NCBI RefSeq assembly: GCF_024296925.1
Contig: NZ_CP101125.1
Location: forward strand, 2,668,501-2,732,500
Length of the DNA stretch: 64,000 bases
Direction: 5' to 3'
Source of the DNA: Pseudomonas nunensis
GTDB taxonomy: Bacteria; Pseudomonadota; Gammaproteobacteria; Pseudomonadales; Pseudomonadaceae
This document shows positions 17,183 through 23,996 of this stretch, piece by piece. The stretch's first letter is position 1, and each line of letters opens with the position of its first letter. The position numbers and the translations under genes are program-made. A model generated the notes under the pieces. The model searched no databases. It was not told the origin of the DNA and saw only the letters and a list, made by a program, of their open reading frames with translations.

Positions 17183-17239
17183 CAGGGTATCTGGGGGTAT
17201 TATCTAGGGTATCTTGCCCTGGCAGCTCCACGGATACCC
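17183..17239. other. Clustered GGGTATC repeats before the integrase (possible att or arm sites)
   Basis: GGGTAT(C/T) occurs three times in direct orientation at 17185, 17195 and 17207 and once inverted at 17233 (GATACCC). An outer CCAGGG/CCCTGG pair also spans the cluster. Such clustered short repeats next to an integrase gene are typical of arm-type integrase or excisionase binding sites, or of attL. No matching copy was found at the other end of the element, and no tRNA gene is present. Confidence 0.4.
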
Positions 17240-17246
17240 CTACATC

Positions 17247-18524
17247 ATGCCTGCTTCCGACAGTCCCACAGCCAACCCGTCATCTCCCAGAAGCCTCAGT
17301 GATGCCCGCCTTAGATCGCTGTTCGAGCCCGGTAGGTACACAGACGGCACTGTGCCCGGCCTCTATCTGCAAGTCTCGAAGAGCGGCGGCAAGTTGTGGC
17401 GGCTGAAGTACCGCCTGCACGGCAAGGAATACGTGTATGCGATCGGTACCTACCCTGCCATAGGCCTGAAGAAAGCTCGCGATTTGGCTTGGTTAGCTAG
17501 AACAGAGGTATCTGAAGGCAAACACCCTCTGAAAGAGAAGAAAGCCAAGCTCGAGGAAAAACGACTCGCGGAAGACCGGACGTTCCAGTTCGTCGCCGAG
17601 CAATGGTTGAAGATCAAAGGGCCTAAGCTGGTCGAAAAGTCTCTCGCCGGCTTCAACGGTGCACTGACCAACCACATCTACCCTACCCTCGGCCAAATGG
17701 CGGTGGCCGACATCAAGCTTGAGCACATCAGTGCCGTGATCGGCAGACTCACCGGCAAGGGCATGATGGCGATGGCCAAGCGGTGCCGGACGATCATGCG
17801 GGCCGTGTTAGGGTTTGCGCTGGGGCGTAGCTGGGTGCCGCACAACGTGGCACTGGGCAAAAGCGACGAACTGGAAATCAGCCACGTCGTGACCCACTCC
17901 GCCGCGCTGGAAACACCTGAAGAGCTGGGGCGCTACCTGCGACGGCTGGAGACTTCTGGCGACGGCAGTGTGACGCAAGCACTGCGACTGTCGGCCCTGC
18001 TCCCCTGCCGCCCCGGTGAGCTGGCGGTGATGCGCTGGGAAGACACCAATCTCGCCGGTGGCGACTGGCGTTACGTGGTCGGCAAGACCAAGCACCTGAG
18101 TAAGGAGAAGCACATCGTACCGCTGCCGACACAAGCGCTGGCAATCCTGCGTGAGTTGCACGAAAGCCGTGTCGTCAACGCCAAGGGAGAAGGCTGGGTA
18201 TTTCCGAGCCCGGTCCACCCTGGCGAGCCCATCAACCCCACCTCACTGTTGAAAGCGGCACAGCGCCTGTGGCCGGACGGGAAGATAACCGCCCACGGTT
18301 TCCGCAGCGTGTTTCGCAGCATGGCCCACGAGCATCTAGGGATTGATTTCGTGGTGCTTGAACTGATGCTGTCGCACAAGATGCCCGGTCCGCTCGGTGC
18401 CACCTACGCACGGGCGCAGTTGCTGAAGCAACGTCGAGAGGCGGCGCAGGAGTGGGCCGATTACCTCGACCGCCTGCGCTCAACGCCAGAACAAAACAAT
18501 GACCGGATGAACGGCATTGAATGA
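17247..18524 (+). CDS. Tyrosine-type site-specific integrase
   Basis: A 425-residue integrase of the P4/CP4-57 class. Residues ~18-100 are the DUF4102 arm-binding domain ('DGTVPGLYLQVSKSGGKLWRLKYR'). Residues ~115-205 are the core-binding SAM-like domain. The catalytic domain shows Arg in 'PCRPGELAVMRWED', His-x-x-Arg in 'HGFRSVFRS', a second His in 'LSHKMPG' and the nucleophile Tyr in 'GATYARAQLLKQRR'. All catalytic residues are present, so it should be active. The ATG at 17247 is chosen over an earlier ATG at 17214, which overlaps the GGGTATC repeat region. This class usually targets tRNA 3' ends, but no tRNA is seen here. Confidence 0.92.
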   Translation: MPASDSPTANPSSPRSLSDARLRSLFEPGRYTDGTVPGLYLQVSKSGGKLWRLKYRLHGKEYVYAIGTYPAIGLKKARDLAWLARTEVSEGKHPLKEKKAKLEEKRLAEDRTFQFVAEQWLKIKGPKLVEKSLAGFNGALTNHIYPTLGQMAVADIKLEHISAVIGRLTGKGMMAMAKRCRTIMRAVLGFALGRSWVPHNVALGKSDELEISHVVTHSAALETPEELGRYLRRLETSGDGSVTQALRLSALLPCRPGELAVMRWEDTNLAGGDWRYVVGKTKHLSKEKHIVPLPTQALAILRELHESRVVNAKGEGWVFPSPVHPGEPINPTSLLKAAQRLWPDGKITAHGFRSVFRSMAHEHLGIDFVVLELMLSHKMPGPLGATYARAQLLKQRREAAQEWADYLDRLRSTPEQNNDRMNGIE

Positions 18525-18742
18525 TATTGCACAGCTGAAAAAACAGGAATAAGGTGCCGGCCAATCCCGACAGGAAAGGGATTGACCAGCAAACCAAACC
18601 AGATACACGTAGTCCCGCCCCAAGGTCCGCCATAGGAACCTGACAGGTACACACAAATCGAAACGGAACAGACATTCGATTTGGACTGGGATCAAGTGAC
18701 CGGTGCCAACAGCGCCGGGTTCAGTTGATTTCGAGGTGCACC

Positions 18743-19063
18743 ATGTCAGCAGCAACCCTCACCGCCACAACACCCCCTACTCTCGCGTCGGAATCGGCCT
18801 ACAACCATGGCCACAGCCCACTCATGCCCCTTAGAGAAGCATTGGCCATCTACGGCGCGGGACGCACTGCCTTCTACGCCAGCATCGCGCGTGGCGACTT
18901 CCCTGCCCCTGTCTCGCTCGGCCCCCGGCGCTCAAACGGCTACGCCGGTAAATCCATGTGGGTTCGCACTGAGATCATGGCCTGGCTCGAAGCCAAGATT
19001 TCCGAGCCTCGCGCACTAGGACCGACCGCAAAGTCCTGTCGCGCTGCCGAGCAACCGGCGTAG
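18743..19063 (+). CDS. AlpA-family helix-turn-helix regulator/excisionase
   Basis: A 106-residue protein. The central part (residues ~32-90) has the AlpA/MerR-like winged-helix pattern 'MPLREALAIYGAGRTAFYAS', 'GDFPAPVSLGPRR' and 'WVRTEIMAWLEAKI'. The start at 18743 follows GAGGTGCACC. AlpA proteins activate integrase genes or act as excisionases of P4-type islands. The gap from the integrase (218 bp) shows no other gene. Confidence 0.82.
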   Translation: MSAATLTATTPPTLASESAYNHGHSPLMPLREALAIYGAGRTAFYASIARGDFPAPVSLGPRRSNGYAGKSMWVRTEIMAWLEAKISEPRALGPTAKSCRAAEQPA

Positions 19064-19130: not shown

Positions 19131-20867
19131 ATGAAAAATTCTAGCACTTTTGCGCCAGGAAATCAGCCGGGCGCTGTGTCGCCGAGGCATCTTGACGACG
19201 AACAGTACATCCCTCATTTCAATGAGAAACGCGACGAGCTTCTGCGGTCAGGATTGTGCTCGAAAGGCTCTGTGTCCGCAAAGGCGGTCATGTTGCTGGC
19301 GCATGTAGGCCTATTGCGTGCTGCGAATGACCATCCCACAAACAATCATCAACACCCTGCGCCAGGCATTGCTGGCGAGCACGGTGGTGCACCAGTTGTT
19401 GACGATCACCCCGCCTCTACCCAGTCGCAACGCCGTCCTGCAACGTCTGACAAAAGGAAAAAGGCCAATCCAATAACGACGATTGATGCTGAATCGAAGG
19501 AGATTTTGCGCTACATCAGCGAAGACTTTGTCATGTTGGGCAGCGCTTCCAGCTTGGTGGCGTACCACATCGAAAGCGGCGACAAGCTGGGTAAAGAGGC
19601 ATTCATCCAATACTGTGCCAAGCATTACGGCGAGGTGCTATTCGTCGATAGCGATGGCAATCAGGTTGATCGGGCATCGAGCGGGCAAATCTGGTGGGCG
19701 TGGAGCGATCCGAGCAGGCGTGTGGTGAAGTCCATCATTATGGAGCCGTCCAGCAAGCCCGAGCACGAAGGCGACCCGACCGCCTACAACCGCTGGTACA
19801 CACTGCGCAAGAGCATGGTCGAGCCGAACTACGCCGCCACCGTAGACGACGTGAAGGTACTCACAGATCATTTGATGTTCATCAGCGACGGTGACGAAGT
19901 AGCGGTGATGTACTTTCTGTGCTGGCTGGCACAGCTATACCAATTCCCTGAAACCAAGATCCCTGTCGCGATCCTGATGTACTCGCGAGTGGGCGGTGTG
20001 GGCAAGAACCTGATTCAACGGCTGCTGACCAAGGTCTTCGGGAAACCGCTGGTGACAGGCTGCACCGGCAAAATGCTGCAAAGCAATTTCATGGACGCCA
20101 TCGAACACCGCCGCATGGTGTTCATCAATGAAGTGGCCAAGTCCGAAAAGGCCGACGGGTATGAAAATTTCAAGAGCCAGATATCCGAAGAATCCGTCTC
20201 GTTCGAGGGCAAGGGGCGCGCAGCCCGTGAAATCAAAAACATCGCGCATTACATCATCACCACCAACAACCTGGATGCCTTGCCGTTGATGCAAGGCGAT
20301 CGGCGCATTGCTGTGCTGATGTGCGACTCGGTGCCGAAGTCCACGATCTATTACAAAACGCTGGTCGAGTGGATTGACGGACCAGGAGGGCCGGCACTGG
20401 CCAACGTACTGCGCACCTGGGAGTTCCCAGCCAGTTGGAACCCGCACGCACCAGCACCACAGACCGAGGCCGCTCGCATCATGCAACGTGAGTCACGGGG
20501 CGCACTGCATGCAATGGTTGAGGAATTAATTGAAGGCCACAGGGCACCGTTTGACCGCGACCTGGTGACGATCAATGCTACCTGTTTGGCTCTCGAAACG
20601 CAGTACGGAAAGATACTCCAGAGGGAAATCAACCCGGTCAAGTTGGGCAGGGTCTTGAATGACATTTGCGGCAAACCCAGCCAGAAAGACATCAAACGCC
20701 CAGGACAGGCCACCGAAAGGAAGGTGCGGTACTACGTCGTCCGTAACGGCGAAAAATGGGAAAAATCCACGCCGGAGCAGCGCGGCGACCACCTCGAAAA
20801 AGGTACTCCGCTGTTCGCTGTGTCAACCGAAACCCGAGGCAGTGAGGTAGGAAGTCATGAAATTTGA
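19131..20867 (+). CDS. DUF5906-type replication helicase (SF3 ATPase)
   Basis: A 578-residue protein with an unstructured N-terminal third and a viral/plasmid-type superfamily 3 ATPase domain. Walker A is 'SRVGGVGKNLIQ' (~residues 285-296), Walker B 'MVFINEV' follows ~45 residues later, and 'YIITTNNLDALPL' fits motif C. This arrangement is that of PF19263/DUF5906 proteins, which serve as replication initiator-helicases of satellites and islands. A primase active site is not evident, so this may be a helicase-only version. The gene overlaps the next by 11 bases, which suggests translational coupling. Confidence 0.82.
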   Translation: MKNSSTFAPGNQPGAVSPRHLDDEQYIPHFNEKRDELLRSGLCSKGSVSAKAVMLLAHVGLLRAANDHPTNNHQHPAPGIAGEHGGAPVVDDHPASTQSQRRPATSDKRKKANPITTIDAESKEILRYISEDFVMLGSASSLVAYHIESGDKLGKEAFIQYCAKHYGEVLFVDSDGNQVDRASSGQIWWAWSDPSRRVVKSIIMEPSSKPEHEGDPTAYNRWYTLRKSMVEPNYAATVDDVKVLTDHLMFISDGDEVAVMYFLCWLAQLYQFPETKIPVAILMYSRVGGVGKNLIQRLLTKVFGKPLVTGCTGKMLQSNFMDAIEHRRMVFINEVAKSEKADGYENFKSQISEESVSFEGKGRAAREIKNIAHYIITTNNLDALPLMQGDRRIAVLMCDSVPKSTIYYKTLVEWIDGPGGPALANVLRTWEFPASWNPHAPAPQTEAARIMQRESRGALHAMVEELIEGHRAPFDRDLVTINATCLALETQYGKILQREINPVKLGRVLNDICGKPSQKDIKRPGQATERKVRYYVVRNGEKWEKSTPEQRGDHLEKGTPLFAVSTETRGSEVGSHEI

Positions 20868-21102
20868 TTGGATTGAATGGCTCGGTCGAGGAATGCAGCT
20901 CGCACTGGTTGTGCTGGCCGTCGGTGGGATTTATGAGTGCTCCGCCGACAGTAGCCGAAAACAGGAAGCGCTGTGCGGCGTGGCGCAGTCATACGTGGAA
21001 GCCCTAGATACTCGGTCGCAGGTGTCCCGACAGGAAATTAAACGCGCCGAGAAGACTATCAGCGACGCCTGTGATCAGAATGACGACTACCGGGACTACT
21101 GA
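20857..21102 (+). CDS. Small protein with one membrane segment, unrecognised
   Basis: An 81-residue protein. Residues ~13-28 (MQLALVVLAVGGIYEC) form one hydrophobic segment, followed by a charged, likely cytoplasmic or periplasmic helix with two later Cys. The ATG lies inside the end of the helicase gene and follows GAGGTAGGAAGTC. It could be a lysis-, anchoring- or immunity-type accessory; there is no basis to choose. Confidence 0.6.
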   Translation: MKFDWIEWLGRGMQLALVVLAVGGIYECSADSSRKQEALCGVAQSYVEALDTRSQVSRQEIKRAEKTISDACDQNDDYRDY

Positions 21103-21164: not shown

Positions 21165-21958
21165 GTGTACATTTTCGAGATCGTTGTTCCGGGTGAATCG
21201 CTAGAGCTGCCCGGACTAAGCCCGCGTGCCAAATGGGATATGGAAGACATGCTCCATGCGCTCACTGCACAGTTTTTTGAGGCTAACTTTGCACTCAACT
21301 TGTTCGAGCAGACACGGCTGAAGGAGGACGCGAGCCCCACCATTGAAAAGTGGCAGCGCAGGGTAAACCGTAGTCGAGAGATAGAAGAGATCGTCGAACA
21401 AGAACGTGGACCATCAACGGATTTTTCAAAACGGATATAAAATTTGAGGCCGACATACGCCTCAAACGCGAGGAGTGGGCATCAGGCAAGCTGCCATCCG
21501 AGTTCGAACATCAGCTTTCTTTTTTGTATGCTAAAGAGTTTCTCAGCGCGCTGGACGGCTTCGAAAAACATCTTGGGAAAATCCAGAAAGCTGAAGGTGC
21601 GCCACCAGTTATCGCGGACCTTCACAGCAGAACGATCGCCGCTTTTCCAGACTTGCGTGCGGTTCGAAATTCAGTCCAACACAATGAGGAGCGCGTACGC
21701 TCGAAGGGTTTCAAAGAAAAAAACCTTGATTTGCAACCCCTCCCCAATGGAATGGCGCCGCCTGAGCTCAAAGTGCTAGCGCTCAAAAACTTACATGGTT
21801 CAAAGTTCTGCACAACCATGGACAATGGAAGCTACGGTGAAGTGGATATTTCTCCCGAGTCCATGGAAATAATGCGAGGGCTTCTTCAAGAAGCATTGAG
21901 CGCGTTCATCTGGACCGGGCCGATGCGTCACCTACCAAGCGCACCAAAACTCGTCTAG
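21165..21958 (+). pseudogene. HEPN-like protein gene with one-base frameshift
   Basis: Two adjoining frames form what looks like one ~265-residue protein. The first runs from a GTG at 21165 (AAGGAG 8 bases upstream) to a stop at 21440. The second runs open from ~21422, with no good start of its own, to 21958. Adding one T to the five-T run at 21422-21426 joins them without other change (…GPSTDFFKTDIKFEADIR…). The second part carries 'AVRNSVQHNEERV' (codons at 21665-21682), an R-x4-H motif of the kind that forms the RNase site of HEPN domains. The N-terminal part is helical without a known motif. The shift may be a true mutation or a sequencing error. A canonical -1 slippery heptamer is absent. 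Confidence 0.6.
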
Positions 21959-22128
21959 CTGCCCCGTCGATCCAAGAGGGCGCTCTCCGTGGCGCCCTGC
22001 AAGCGATTGGCAAGAACGCTGGGCACATCAAGCAAGGACTGGCCAAGCTGTTGCAGCAGTTAAAATAAAGGGCGATCGCCATAGGCGCCTCGACTACTAC
22101 AGCTCAACACTTACAAAGGGAATCTCCA

Positions 22129-23181
22129 ATGCGGTTAACACTGTCGTGCATGCAGTGCTTACAAGAAAGCGGACGACTAGGCGGTGCTTCGCACGTCGAA
22201 ATTCGGGACGATGGTTGCTACACGGCAACCTGCCTGAACGGCCATAAGACTGTGACCGTCCTTCAGCAGCAAAAATTCGAAGTCCTGTTTGAGATTGGCG
22301 CCCACGCGATACTGGACGGTTACTACCGAGAAGCGGTTTCCTCTTTTACTTCGAGCCTCGAACGCTTCTACGAATACACCATCCGAATACTCCTCGAAAA
22401 ATCCTCGGGTAGTGACAACCTTTTCCAGGCTGCATGGAAAAATGTCTCGAACATGTCGGAGCGGCAGCTCGGTGCGTTTATCTTCCTTTGGGCCCACAAC
22501 TTCAAAGAACCCCCTGCGCTACTGCCCGATAATATGATTAAGTTCAGAAATGAGGTAATCCATAAAGGCAAAATTCCATCGCGAGACAAGGCTTTGGAAT
22601 ACGGAGATGCGGTCCTGGACGTGCTGCGGCCGAAGCTAAGTAAAATTCTTGAGGCGTTCCCAGAGCAAGTGCAAAGCTCAAGCATCCGGCAAATTATGGC
22701 TAGTGCAGGAAAAGCCGACACCCCGAATAGCGTATCGACAATGTCCATCAATACAATCCTAGGTCAAGGCAATGTTGAGGGCCCAGAAAAACGCCTCGAA
22801 GAGCACCTGGTTTTGGTAGATGACATGCGCACTCGACTTGGTAACCTTCAGGATTACTTCAATCAGATGCAGGCGCCGCAAGGCCCCATTATGTCGCCTG
22901 ATGAAATTCGTGATTTCCTCGGCCGAAAATTCCCTGAGCTGGTAGCAGAGGGTCGCAACGACCCCGACGGCTGGGATTTCTTTCTGGGGGCACCACAGCA
23001 AGAGCCAAACTCCAATTGCATCGTCCGCACTGTGCAACACCCACAAGGGGGCACCCAATTCGAGCTGTCGGTATCATCACGACTTGAAGGCACAGAAAAG
23101 ATGGTCATGTTCAGCGGGAATGAGGACGCATTGCGTCAAGTTGTCGATGCGCAGCTACGCATCTATCGCGACCACCTGTAA
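22129..23181 (+). CDS. Zinc-ribbon plus HEPN-like protein
   Basis: A 350-residue protein of unknown family. Residues 7-39 hold Cys7-x2-Cys10 and Cys30/Cys35/His39, a likely zinc-binding ribbon. A helical domain follows (residues ~45-175) with 'IKFRNEVIHKGKIP', where Arg140-x4-His145 is the HEPN signature; 'RNEVIHKG' is the typical spelling in HEPN/MAE_28990-like proteins. The C-terminal ~140 residues are mixed alpha/beta and unrecognised. The start follows AAGGGAATCTCC. It is the last forward gene of the element, after the frameshifted R-x4-H gene, and ends at a hairpin. HEPN proteins of this kind are often RNases in antiviral or toxin-antitoxin systems; that role is inferred here. Confidence 0.65.
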   Translation: MRLTLSCMQCLQESGRLGGASHVEIRDDGCYTATCLNGHKTVTVLQQQKFEVLFEIGAHAILDGYYREAVSSFTSSLERFYEYTIRILLEKSSGSDNLFQAAWKNVSNMSERQLGAFIFLWAHNFKEPPALLPDNMIKFRNEVIHKGKIPSRDKALEYGDAVLDVLRPKLSKILEAFPEQVQSSSIRQIMASAGKADTPNSVSTMSINTILGQGNVEGPEKRLEEHLVLVDDMRTRLGNLQDYFNQMQAPQGPIMSPDEIRDFLGRKFPELVAEGRNDPDGWDFFLGAPQQEPNSNCIVRTVQHPQGGTQFELSVSSRLEGTEKMVMFSGNEDALRQVVDAQLRIYRDHL

Positions 23182-23358: not shown

Positions 23359-23600
23359 CACTTCACCTCGCTGATGTGCCGGCGTGGCACAGATTCGGAA
23401 AACAACTCACTGCGTAACTCGGCCTCGAACTGATCAAGCGGCAAGCAGGGAGCATGTACCAGCGCCCACGCCGTCATCCGAACGCCCTTCATGATCAGCC
23501 GGCGACGAACCCGCAGTGCTTCGCTCGGGCCGCTCTCCACGTCCCGCTGAAGGCGGCTCAGAATGCGTTCGAGGCGTATTTCCTTAGCTTCAACGCTCAT
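23358..23600 (-). CDS. Small protein of the element, unrecognised
   Basis: An 80-residue, largely helical, charged protein ('IRLERILSRLQRDVESGPSEALRVRRRLIMKG'). Its ATG at 23600 lies two bases after the TGA of the preceding gene, and its own stop overlaps the next start. An earlier start at 23648 would overlap the upstream gene and is less likely. No family is recognised. Confidence 0.5.
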   Translation of the reverse strand: MSVEAKEIRLERILSRLQRDVESGPSEALRVRRRLIMKGVRMTAWALVHAPCLPLDQFEAELRSELFSESVPRRHISEVK

Positions 23601-23602
23601 GA

Positions 23603-23788
23603 TCAGTACGCCGGACGCACAGTGGAGGCGTCCTTCATCGAGTTCCACAGCTTGTCGAACTCAGCGTTGCTCATGCTGGCGACGTCTTTCGCACTGATCC
23701 TCCCCGACTCGTCCGGCGCACGGCCAGCGGCTGGTAAATTGCTCAGGCTGGTGGGCGCTTGGCGAGCGGGTTGGCGGGTTGCAGGCAC
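23603..23788 (-). CDS. C-terminal part of an element gene, probably 5'-truncated
   Basis: A 61-codon frame whose end reads 'ISAKDVASMSNAEFDKLWNSM', a style seen near the C-termini of phage-type structural proteins. The frame is open up to the junction with the livH-like gene and has only a GTG at 23788. The true N-terminus was therefore probably removed when the element's right end was lost. It is the first of three coupled minus-strand genes. Confidence 0.4.
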   Translation of the reverse strand: MPATRQPARQAPTSLSNLPAAGRAPDESGRISAKDVASMSNAEFDKLWNSMKDASTVRPAY

Positions 23789-23792
23789 ATGA

Positions 23793-23996
23793 GTTCAAGC
23801 CCAGGTAGTTGAGCCCAAGTACGGCGATGAAGGCACCCAACATGTACTGGGCGCCGTGGGCGAAGTTGATGATCCGCAGGAGCCCGAAAATGATCGCCAG
23901 GCCCAGGCTGAGCAAAGCATAGAAGGCCCCGTTGATCAGCCCCAGGAGCACCTGGCCGAACAATACACTCAGGGGAATACCGAATACGACAGTCAT
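23793..23996 (-). pseudogene. Truncated LivH-type branched-chain amino-acid ABC permease
   Basis: The frame begins as a normal LivH permease: 'MTVVFGIPLSVLFGQVLLGL', then 'INGAFYALLSLGLAIIFGLL' and 'RIINFAHGAQYMLGAF'. Homology stops after residue 68 at 'LGLN', and the sequence continues into element DNA as CACNPPTRS with no membrane segments. Full LivH proteins have ~290 residues and eight or so helices, so this copy cannot form a channel. The partner permease LivM is not found anywhere in the window. Confidence 0.85.

Follow-up and report, generated by a model that had tools for sequence, protein, structure and literature searches.

Among the effectors of phage defence, HEPN ribonucleases (RNases) form a major class. 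Here we describe two neighbouring genes, P1 and P2, whose products carry an R-x4-H motif and which lie in an integrative element of Pseudomonas nunensis; the DNA analysed, hereafter the window, is a stretch of 64,000 nucleotides (NZ_CP101125.1, positions 2,668,501 to 2,732,500) that forms part of one 7.33 Mb contig. By analogy, the closest tested precedent for the function of P1 and P2 would be Tha, a HEPN RNase of 301 amino acids (aa) from a Staphylococcus aureus prophage, which has the motif RNSIMH, blocks phages and is activated by minor tail proteins, according to excerpts of its description (PMC11087260). As portrayed in the same excerpts, Tha resembles P1 and P2 in being prophage-borne, of similar size and of HEPN type with an R-N-x3-H motif, but differs, in a comparison by description only, in its C-terminal HEPN domain (184-296), the absence of a discernible N-terminal domain and the presence of a linked inhibitor gene.

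Further precedents are on record. As far as the excerpted sources go, DS-11 is a one-protein HEPN defence system (PMC13092281), HEPN is among the domains of a P4-satellite hotspot (PMC9122126), the anti-phage protein BxaP contains DUF4145 (PMC10799925), and a functional selection in Escherichia coli yielded 21 systems, one of which is a zinc-finger-like protein with an extended-ribonuclease-family domain (PMC9519451). The last is like P2 in general layout, again by description only; P2 has no PADLOC match, although which of the 21 systems PADLOC holds was unchecked. The initial, sequence-only reading of this DNA could put no name to a zinc ribbon followed by a HEPN domain, yet such layouts are named in the part of a table excerpted from PMC3710099 (DUF4145, EC042_2821 and Npun_R5629). 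Searches of Pfam, NCBIfam and PADLOC returned nothing above cut-off for either the P1 or the P2 family; by score they were assigned to phrog_5322 and phrog_19381, respectively, both of which are listed without function. Because HEPN proteins have precedents in defence and zinc-ribbon layouts have been recorded, we rate both as new HEPN families for which defence is the likeliest, albeit unproven, role, and by analogy single-gene anti-phage RNases are our best guess.

P1 and P2 are unrelated accessory genes and do not form a two-gene module. Besides the window's own, 46 P1 and 85 P2 loci were compared (a few being the same place fetched twice), with flanks of up to 10 kb, shorter at contig ends, and of 1.5 kb for loci from the genome search. 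Not one of these 46 and 85 loci, all outside the P. nunensis genome, contains both genes. The same picture emerges from 199 genomes of the genus, where P2 was found in six, P1 in three and both only in the genome analysed here, which is counted in each figure. A class-wide search located P1 in three of 369 genomes, and a phylum-wide search P2 in two of 349, own genome included in both cases. Nor does P2 have a conserved adjacent partner, for the largest cluster of neighbours within 5 kb covers only 6 of the 85 loci.

The case for P2 as a HEPN-type protein with a zinc ribbon is well supported, by alignment and by a predicted structure. In an alignment of 102 rows (88 of 120 listed proteins, plus 14 loci) R140, N141 and H145 are invariant, and the motif is present in 82 of the 85 loci; two of the other three have no called gene, and the third, close to the end of its contig, is a fragment of 141 aa. 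N-terminal to the motif is the pattern C7-x2-C10, C35-x3-H39, whose residues are putative zinc ligands: C35 and H39 occur in all 102 rows, C10 in 99 of 99 ungapped rows and C7 in 87 of 87. E82 (99 of 102 rows) and an R or K at position 86 (96 of 102) both lie in helix 66-93 and so supply the E-x3-[KR] arrangement looked for in HEPN proteins. The AlphaFold2 model has helices at 49-62, 66-93, 134-146 and 152-176, with insert helices at 96-106 and 110-125, which is the four-helix HEPN order with the motif ending helix 3. Known HEPN folds such as AbiV and Csm6 head the fold matches from VIA-align, among which are also 2q00 and LinB; these matches agree with a HEPN assignment and are not decisive. 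AbiV, to judge by the title of its structure entry, differs from P2 in being part of a two-component system, and Csm6 in carrying a CARF sensor.

Profile comparisons point the same way. P2 is similar to RiboL-PSP with P 0.0033 and to DUF4145 with P 0.0026 (over 23 columns), as compared to 0.0059 for a known HEPN pair and 0.58-0.94 for shuffled controls; hhalign probabilities were low throughout (9.7%, 11.6% and 6.3%). Pfam matches of HEPN_RiboL-PSP (PF18735) to P2 members are weak (12 of 102 members, best E 7.9e-4), and in the profile alignment, with its marginal scores, motif falls on motif; however, the members of that family inspected by eye have no N-terminal zinc ribbon, unlike P2. Zinc-ribbon fusions do occur in DUF4145 (PF13643), as stated in excerpts of PMC3710099. 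The Pfam gathering score of that family is not reached, P2 itself having no match and two of the 102 members matching with a best E of 0.02, and several DUF4145 members differ in reading G-N-x3-H (L137, L138 and L140), whereas L149 has the P2-like RNEAAH. The R-x4-H motif by itself is weak evidence because it is frequent in shuffled sequences: among 2000 residue shuffles each of P2 and of P0121, an intact relative of P1, it appeared in 40% and 29%, respectively, and R-[NDH]-x3-H in 5.4% and 3.5%. It is conservation that carries the case.

The P2 C-terminal domain is restricted to 7 of the 102 aligned proteins, and a search specific to this region returned the same seven. In a related element, that of genome G605, an open reading frame (ORF; L259, 5268-5678, plus strand) encodes 136 aa, which align with P2 residues 230-350 (43% identity, 123 aa), and corresponds to the C-terminal domain without the HEPN part. 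Since the domain stands alone there, in the cargo slot of the element, sequence comparison suggests that in P2 it is probably a fused cargo gene; the ORF might instead be the leftover of a P2.

P1 as assembled in the window is broken. The frame that begins at its start codon ends before the motif, which sits in another frame (Table 1), so that what had been taken for a single first gene is not one. Homologues at E <= 0.001 comprise 16 proteins, namely the window's own piece and 15 of 236-273 aa; as these 15 are single uninterrupted frames, intact copies exist and the window's copy is the damaged one. The best relative, P0121, is 264 aa long in one frame, with 89% identity over 92% of the searched part, and a 144-aa piece of the window's P1 occurs in three contigs, maybe of one strain. 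Across the 40 rows of the P1 alignment (15 proteins and 25 of 42 viral loci) R168, N169 and H173 are invariant, D131 is present in 37 and position 135 is K or R in 39; the motif is found in all 46 loci outside the P. nunensis genome. The model is of good quality (predicted local distance difference test, pLDDT, 92.4) and has helices at 112-142, 149-160 and 164-172, then a beta insert and a helix at 231-246. D131-x3-[KR]135 lies within helix 112-142 and the motif ends helix 164-172, which fits a HEPN protein, in which helix 2 bears an acidic residue and helix 3 ends in the motif.

A fold search with P1 gave generic helical matches and no significant match to known HEPN families, and profile comparison with known HEPN families gave P values of 0.15 and 0.043, not significant. 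Among the VIA-align rows no clear HEPN match was recognised, which is not evidence against P1 as a HEPN protein. Because the invariant motif, the acidic residue and the predicted helix order fit, P1 is probably a HEPN protein. Both motifs noticed in the sequence-only reading are thus borne out by translation, as is the place of the second behind a putative zinc ribbon; its HEPN assignment stands for P2, where motif, profile and the order of the helices support it and the fold matches agree without being decisive, and is probable for P1, for which fold and profile searches brought no confirmation.

Outside P. nunensis, temperate phages carry P1 as a cassette of one gene, and small plasmids have it as well. 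The gene for the Q antiterminator lies directly upstream of P1, in the same direction, in 21 of 46 loci, and lysis, HNH or terminase genes lie downstream in most of the 21. In E. coli JE86-ST05 and SCU-482, P1 is the sole gene from Q to holin. The homology of JE86-ST05 DNA to SfV and 720R4 is lost just past one terminator-like hairpin and returns within the following one, and P1 is the only gene in the gap; at this site a small ORF and a DNA methylase are found in SfV and 720R4, and SKA5 lacks both methylase and P1, its lysis genes differing too. The Q-holin slot of SfV-like coliphages (L203:3928-4824, L202:3430-4967), flanked by two terminator-like hairpins, is a small slot for accessory genes, seen with methylase, P1 or neither. 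Terminator-like hairpins on both sides were found for P1 at 16 of 45 loci, compared to 13 of the 720 other genes present there, counts that are not independent because many of the P1 loci are near-copies; for P2 the figures are 0 of 82 and 6 of 942 other genes. Of 5426 genomes, 23 have one E. coli variant of P1 and 25 another, and a third query (L098) had no match among the genomes searched. Eight plasmid records also match P1, six of them with 80% or more of its length covered. One plasmid, pA53P1, has 4.2 kb and four annotated genes (rep, P1 and two mobilisation genes), P1 being the only gene outside replication and mobilisation. A P1 relative occurs twice on a 12-kb Klebsiella plasmid (L176), as do several other genes in its annotation, and the P1 region is present twice, in opposite directions, on one 33.6-kb viral contig (L087 and L088), perhaps as an assembly artefact.

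The location of P1 directly after Q, with lysis, HNH or terminase genes next in most cases, would also be expected if P1 relatives served the lytic phase, cutting host or phage RNA late for host shut-off or the timing of late genes, and not defence. We consider this unlikely: in E. coli two terminator-like hairpins enclose the cassette, which is missing or replaced in sibling phages, P1 is also found on small plasmids without late genes, and P2 would be left unexplained. The plasmids themselves, some with other toxin-antitoxin genes, bring to mind a different function, in which P1 or P2 is the toxin half of a toxin-antitoxin system, an RNase that is restrained by a neighbouring antitoxin and maintains the element. 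Comparable HEPN toxins are known from the excerpted text of PMC3710099; nevertheless, P2 lacks a recurrent partner, in both E. coli prophages inspected P1 is the single gene enclosed by hairpins, and its only companions on the 4.2-kb plasmid are rep and mob genes, which makes a toxin function quite unlikely.

The relatives of P2 number more than 1,100, in several bacterial phyla, and include 56 loci of named genomes (several phyla), two Bacillus phages, seven plasmids and 21 viral-contig loci. A scan of neighbours took in 78 loci and 145 of 150 listed immediate neighbours, with four repeats of other rows (L123, L126) and one inside match (L069) excluded. Among the neighbours are integrases (four members), resolvases (two), AbiQ/ToxN (two) and RES (two), and also an oligonucleotide cyclase, restriction-modification genes and many ordinary metabolic genes; these are family tallies, not per-gene counts, drawn from the 25 of 125 Pfam and 25 of 138 PADLOC families listed, with no control set. 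The defence-type genes beside P2 are no more than suggestive. P2 occurs sporadically, as an accessory gene with no constant partner. In the SPbeta-like Bacillus phage SPbetaL4 (L011, 8001-8726) the P2 relative is directed opposite to both of its neighbours.

It could be argued that P2 is a non-catalytic or housekeeping HEPN protein, which binds nucleic acid or processes cellular RNA and is carried passively. In favour of this, a zinc ribbon may bind nucleic acid. Moreover, HEPN proteins without the motif can be effective toxins or have other roles, as stated in excerpts of PMC3710099; but the motif residues of P2 are invariant, and its sporadic distribution takes in phages, plasmids and viral contigs, so that we regard a housekeeping role as rather improbable. 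Cooperation of P1 and P2 as one two-gene defence module, as proposed in the sequence-only reading, is very improbable indeed, for while the genes are adjacent, point in the same direction and are each followed by a similar hairpin, they were found together in none of the other loci or genus genomes surveyed, and P1 in the window is frameshifted.

The element itself looks like a prophage-like integrative remnant, with an integrase, AlpA, a primase, a cargo slot and a cut-off phage gene. The integrase/AlpA/helicase core predicted upstream of P1 was found, in the form of an integrase, an AlpA-type regulator and a DUF5906/primase-type protein. The G605 element has an integrase (40% identity, 429 aa), a primase (52%) and AlpA (35%) related to those of the window, as well as counterparts of both small minus-strand ORFs (33-35% and 60%), past which an internal virion protein is encoded. 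Its cargo slot, from the primase to the minus-strand ORFs, holds three genes different from those of the window, one being the 136-aa ORF, whereas in the window the slot is occupied by P1 and P2. Because the same slot carries different genes in this relative, P1 and P2 are seen to be mobile-element cargo, as had been supposed.

In 7 of 11 inspected loci of relatives the left-flank gene is followed, after 76-142 bases, by a match to window 40162 onward. Since the right flank adjoins the left gene in these seven, window 17095-40160 (approximately 23 kb) is extra DNA by comparison. The remaining four have no match to window 40162 within 1.5 kb; among them, G053 matches only after 5.9 kb of other DNA, and G604 has no match to window 40162 onward in a further 11 kb. 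The spot taken by the element is occupied in L189 by an integrase-like sequence (373 columns, 66% DNA identity), and because of this and of the approximately 5.9 kb of other DNA in G053 the insertion site looks variable and resembles an insertion hot spot. The phage part of the element ends near 23.77 kb, at the start of a fragment (23661-23996, minus strand) identified by eye as the N-terminal part of a LivH-like permease, which adjoins LivK-, LivF- and LivG-like genes. The rest of livH was not seen in the interval from a LysR-type gene to the integrase; the right part of the element and the remainder of the host livH may have been lost together. In the P1-P2 interval, a third frame (21959-22068) resembles the C-terminal tail of another protein and stops just short of the hairpin, possibly a recombination scar. 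The hairpin after P2 is terminator-like on the minus strand only, and terminator-like sites are not enriched in the region around it (3 found, 3.0 expected).

Table 1. Features of the element in the window (positions are those of the window; E, expectation value).
Feature	Position	Strand	Evidence or remark
Tyrosine integrase of element	17214-18524	+	Pfam Arm-DNA-bind_3, Phage_int_M, Phage_integrase
AlpA-type regulator	18725-19063	+	PF05930 Phage_AlpA, 22.8 bits (cut-off 21)
Primase/helicase-type replication protein	19131-20867	+	DUF5906 57.6 bits; phrog_1156 DNA primase, E 1.8e-25
81-aa ORF in primase-P1 interval	20857-21102	+	
P1, N-terminal part, broken frame	21165-21440	+	83% identity to intact P0121, 89 aa
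P1, C-terminal part, different frame, carries motif	21386-21958	+	phrog_5322, E 2.5e-57
P1 R-N-x3-H motif, RNSVQH	21665-21682	+	
Hairpin repeat 3' of P1	22062-22089	+	Direct repeat D1, 86% identical to post-P2 repeat; weak fold, z -1.2
P2, 350 aa, zinc-ribbon HEPN protein, phrog_19381	22129-23181	+	Single open frame
P2 putative zinc-ribbon ligands C7, C10, C35, H39	22147-22245	+	Alignment conservation
P2 HEPN domain, residues 46-176	22264-22656	+	AlphaFold2 block means 88-99 pLDDT; VIA-align matches
P2 R-N-x3-H motif, RNEVIH (R140/H145)	22546-22563	+	End of helix 134-146
P2 C-terminal domain, residues 245-350	22861-23178	+	344-351 aa members only
Hairpin 3' of P2	23184-23211	+	-16.6 kcal/mol, z -3.5; plus strand without T run
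Small ORF common to G605 element	23361-23648	-	33-35% identity, 83 aa
C-terminal fragment of 329-aa protein, located near internal-virion-protein gene in G605; truncation mark of element	23606-23788	-	60% identity to G605, 43 aa

We are inclined, at somewhat better than an even chance, to see here a remnant element with two unrelated cargo genes, an intact P2 encoding a zinc-ribbon HEPN RNase and a frameshifted HEPN-like cassette, P1, with an anti-phage role. The sequences with their conservation, the predicted fold, the layout of the cassette and the lack of co-occurrence are observations; zinc binding, a dimer, RNase activity, a trigger and a role against phages we infer for P2. It would be a homodimeric, metal-independent RNase with an active site of R140, N141, H145 and an acidic residue of helix 2 (E78 or E82), silent until an infection-specific signal reached the zinc ribbon or the C-terminal part; once triggered, it would cut RNA and halt the infected cell, with the consequence that other phages or elements could not replicate. 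Intact relatives of P1 would act likewise on behalf of their own prophages and plasmids.

The broader proposition, to which we give slightly less than an even chance, is that there are two HEPN RNase families absent from PADLOC. The P2 type would be a zinc-ribbon, one-gene anti-phage effector, with its more than 1,100 relatives in several phyla, whose Pseudomonas-type members gained a C-terminal domain; the P1 type would be a one-gene cassette, swapped at the Q-to-lysis junction of temperate phages and common to small plasmids and an integrative element. If the two families defend, they would be additional one-gene systems and easy to test. The P1 copies of E. coli prophages, together with a Q-lysis site at which they are swapped with a methylase, make the idea of defence directly testable, and the same site in SfV-like prophages is a place to seek further accessory genes.
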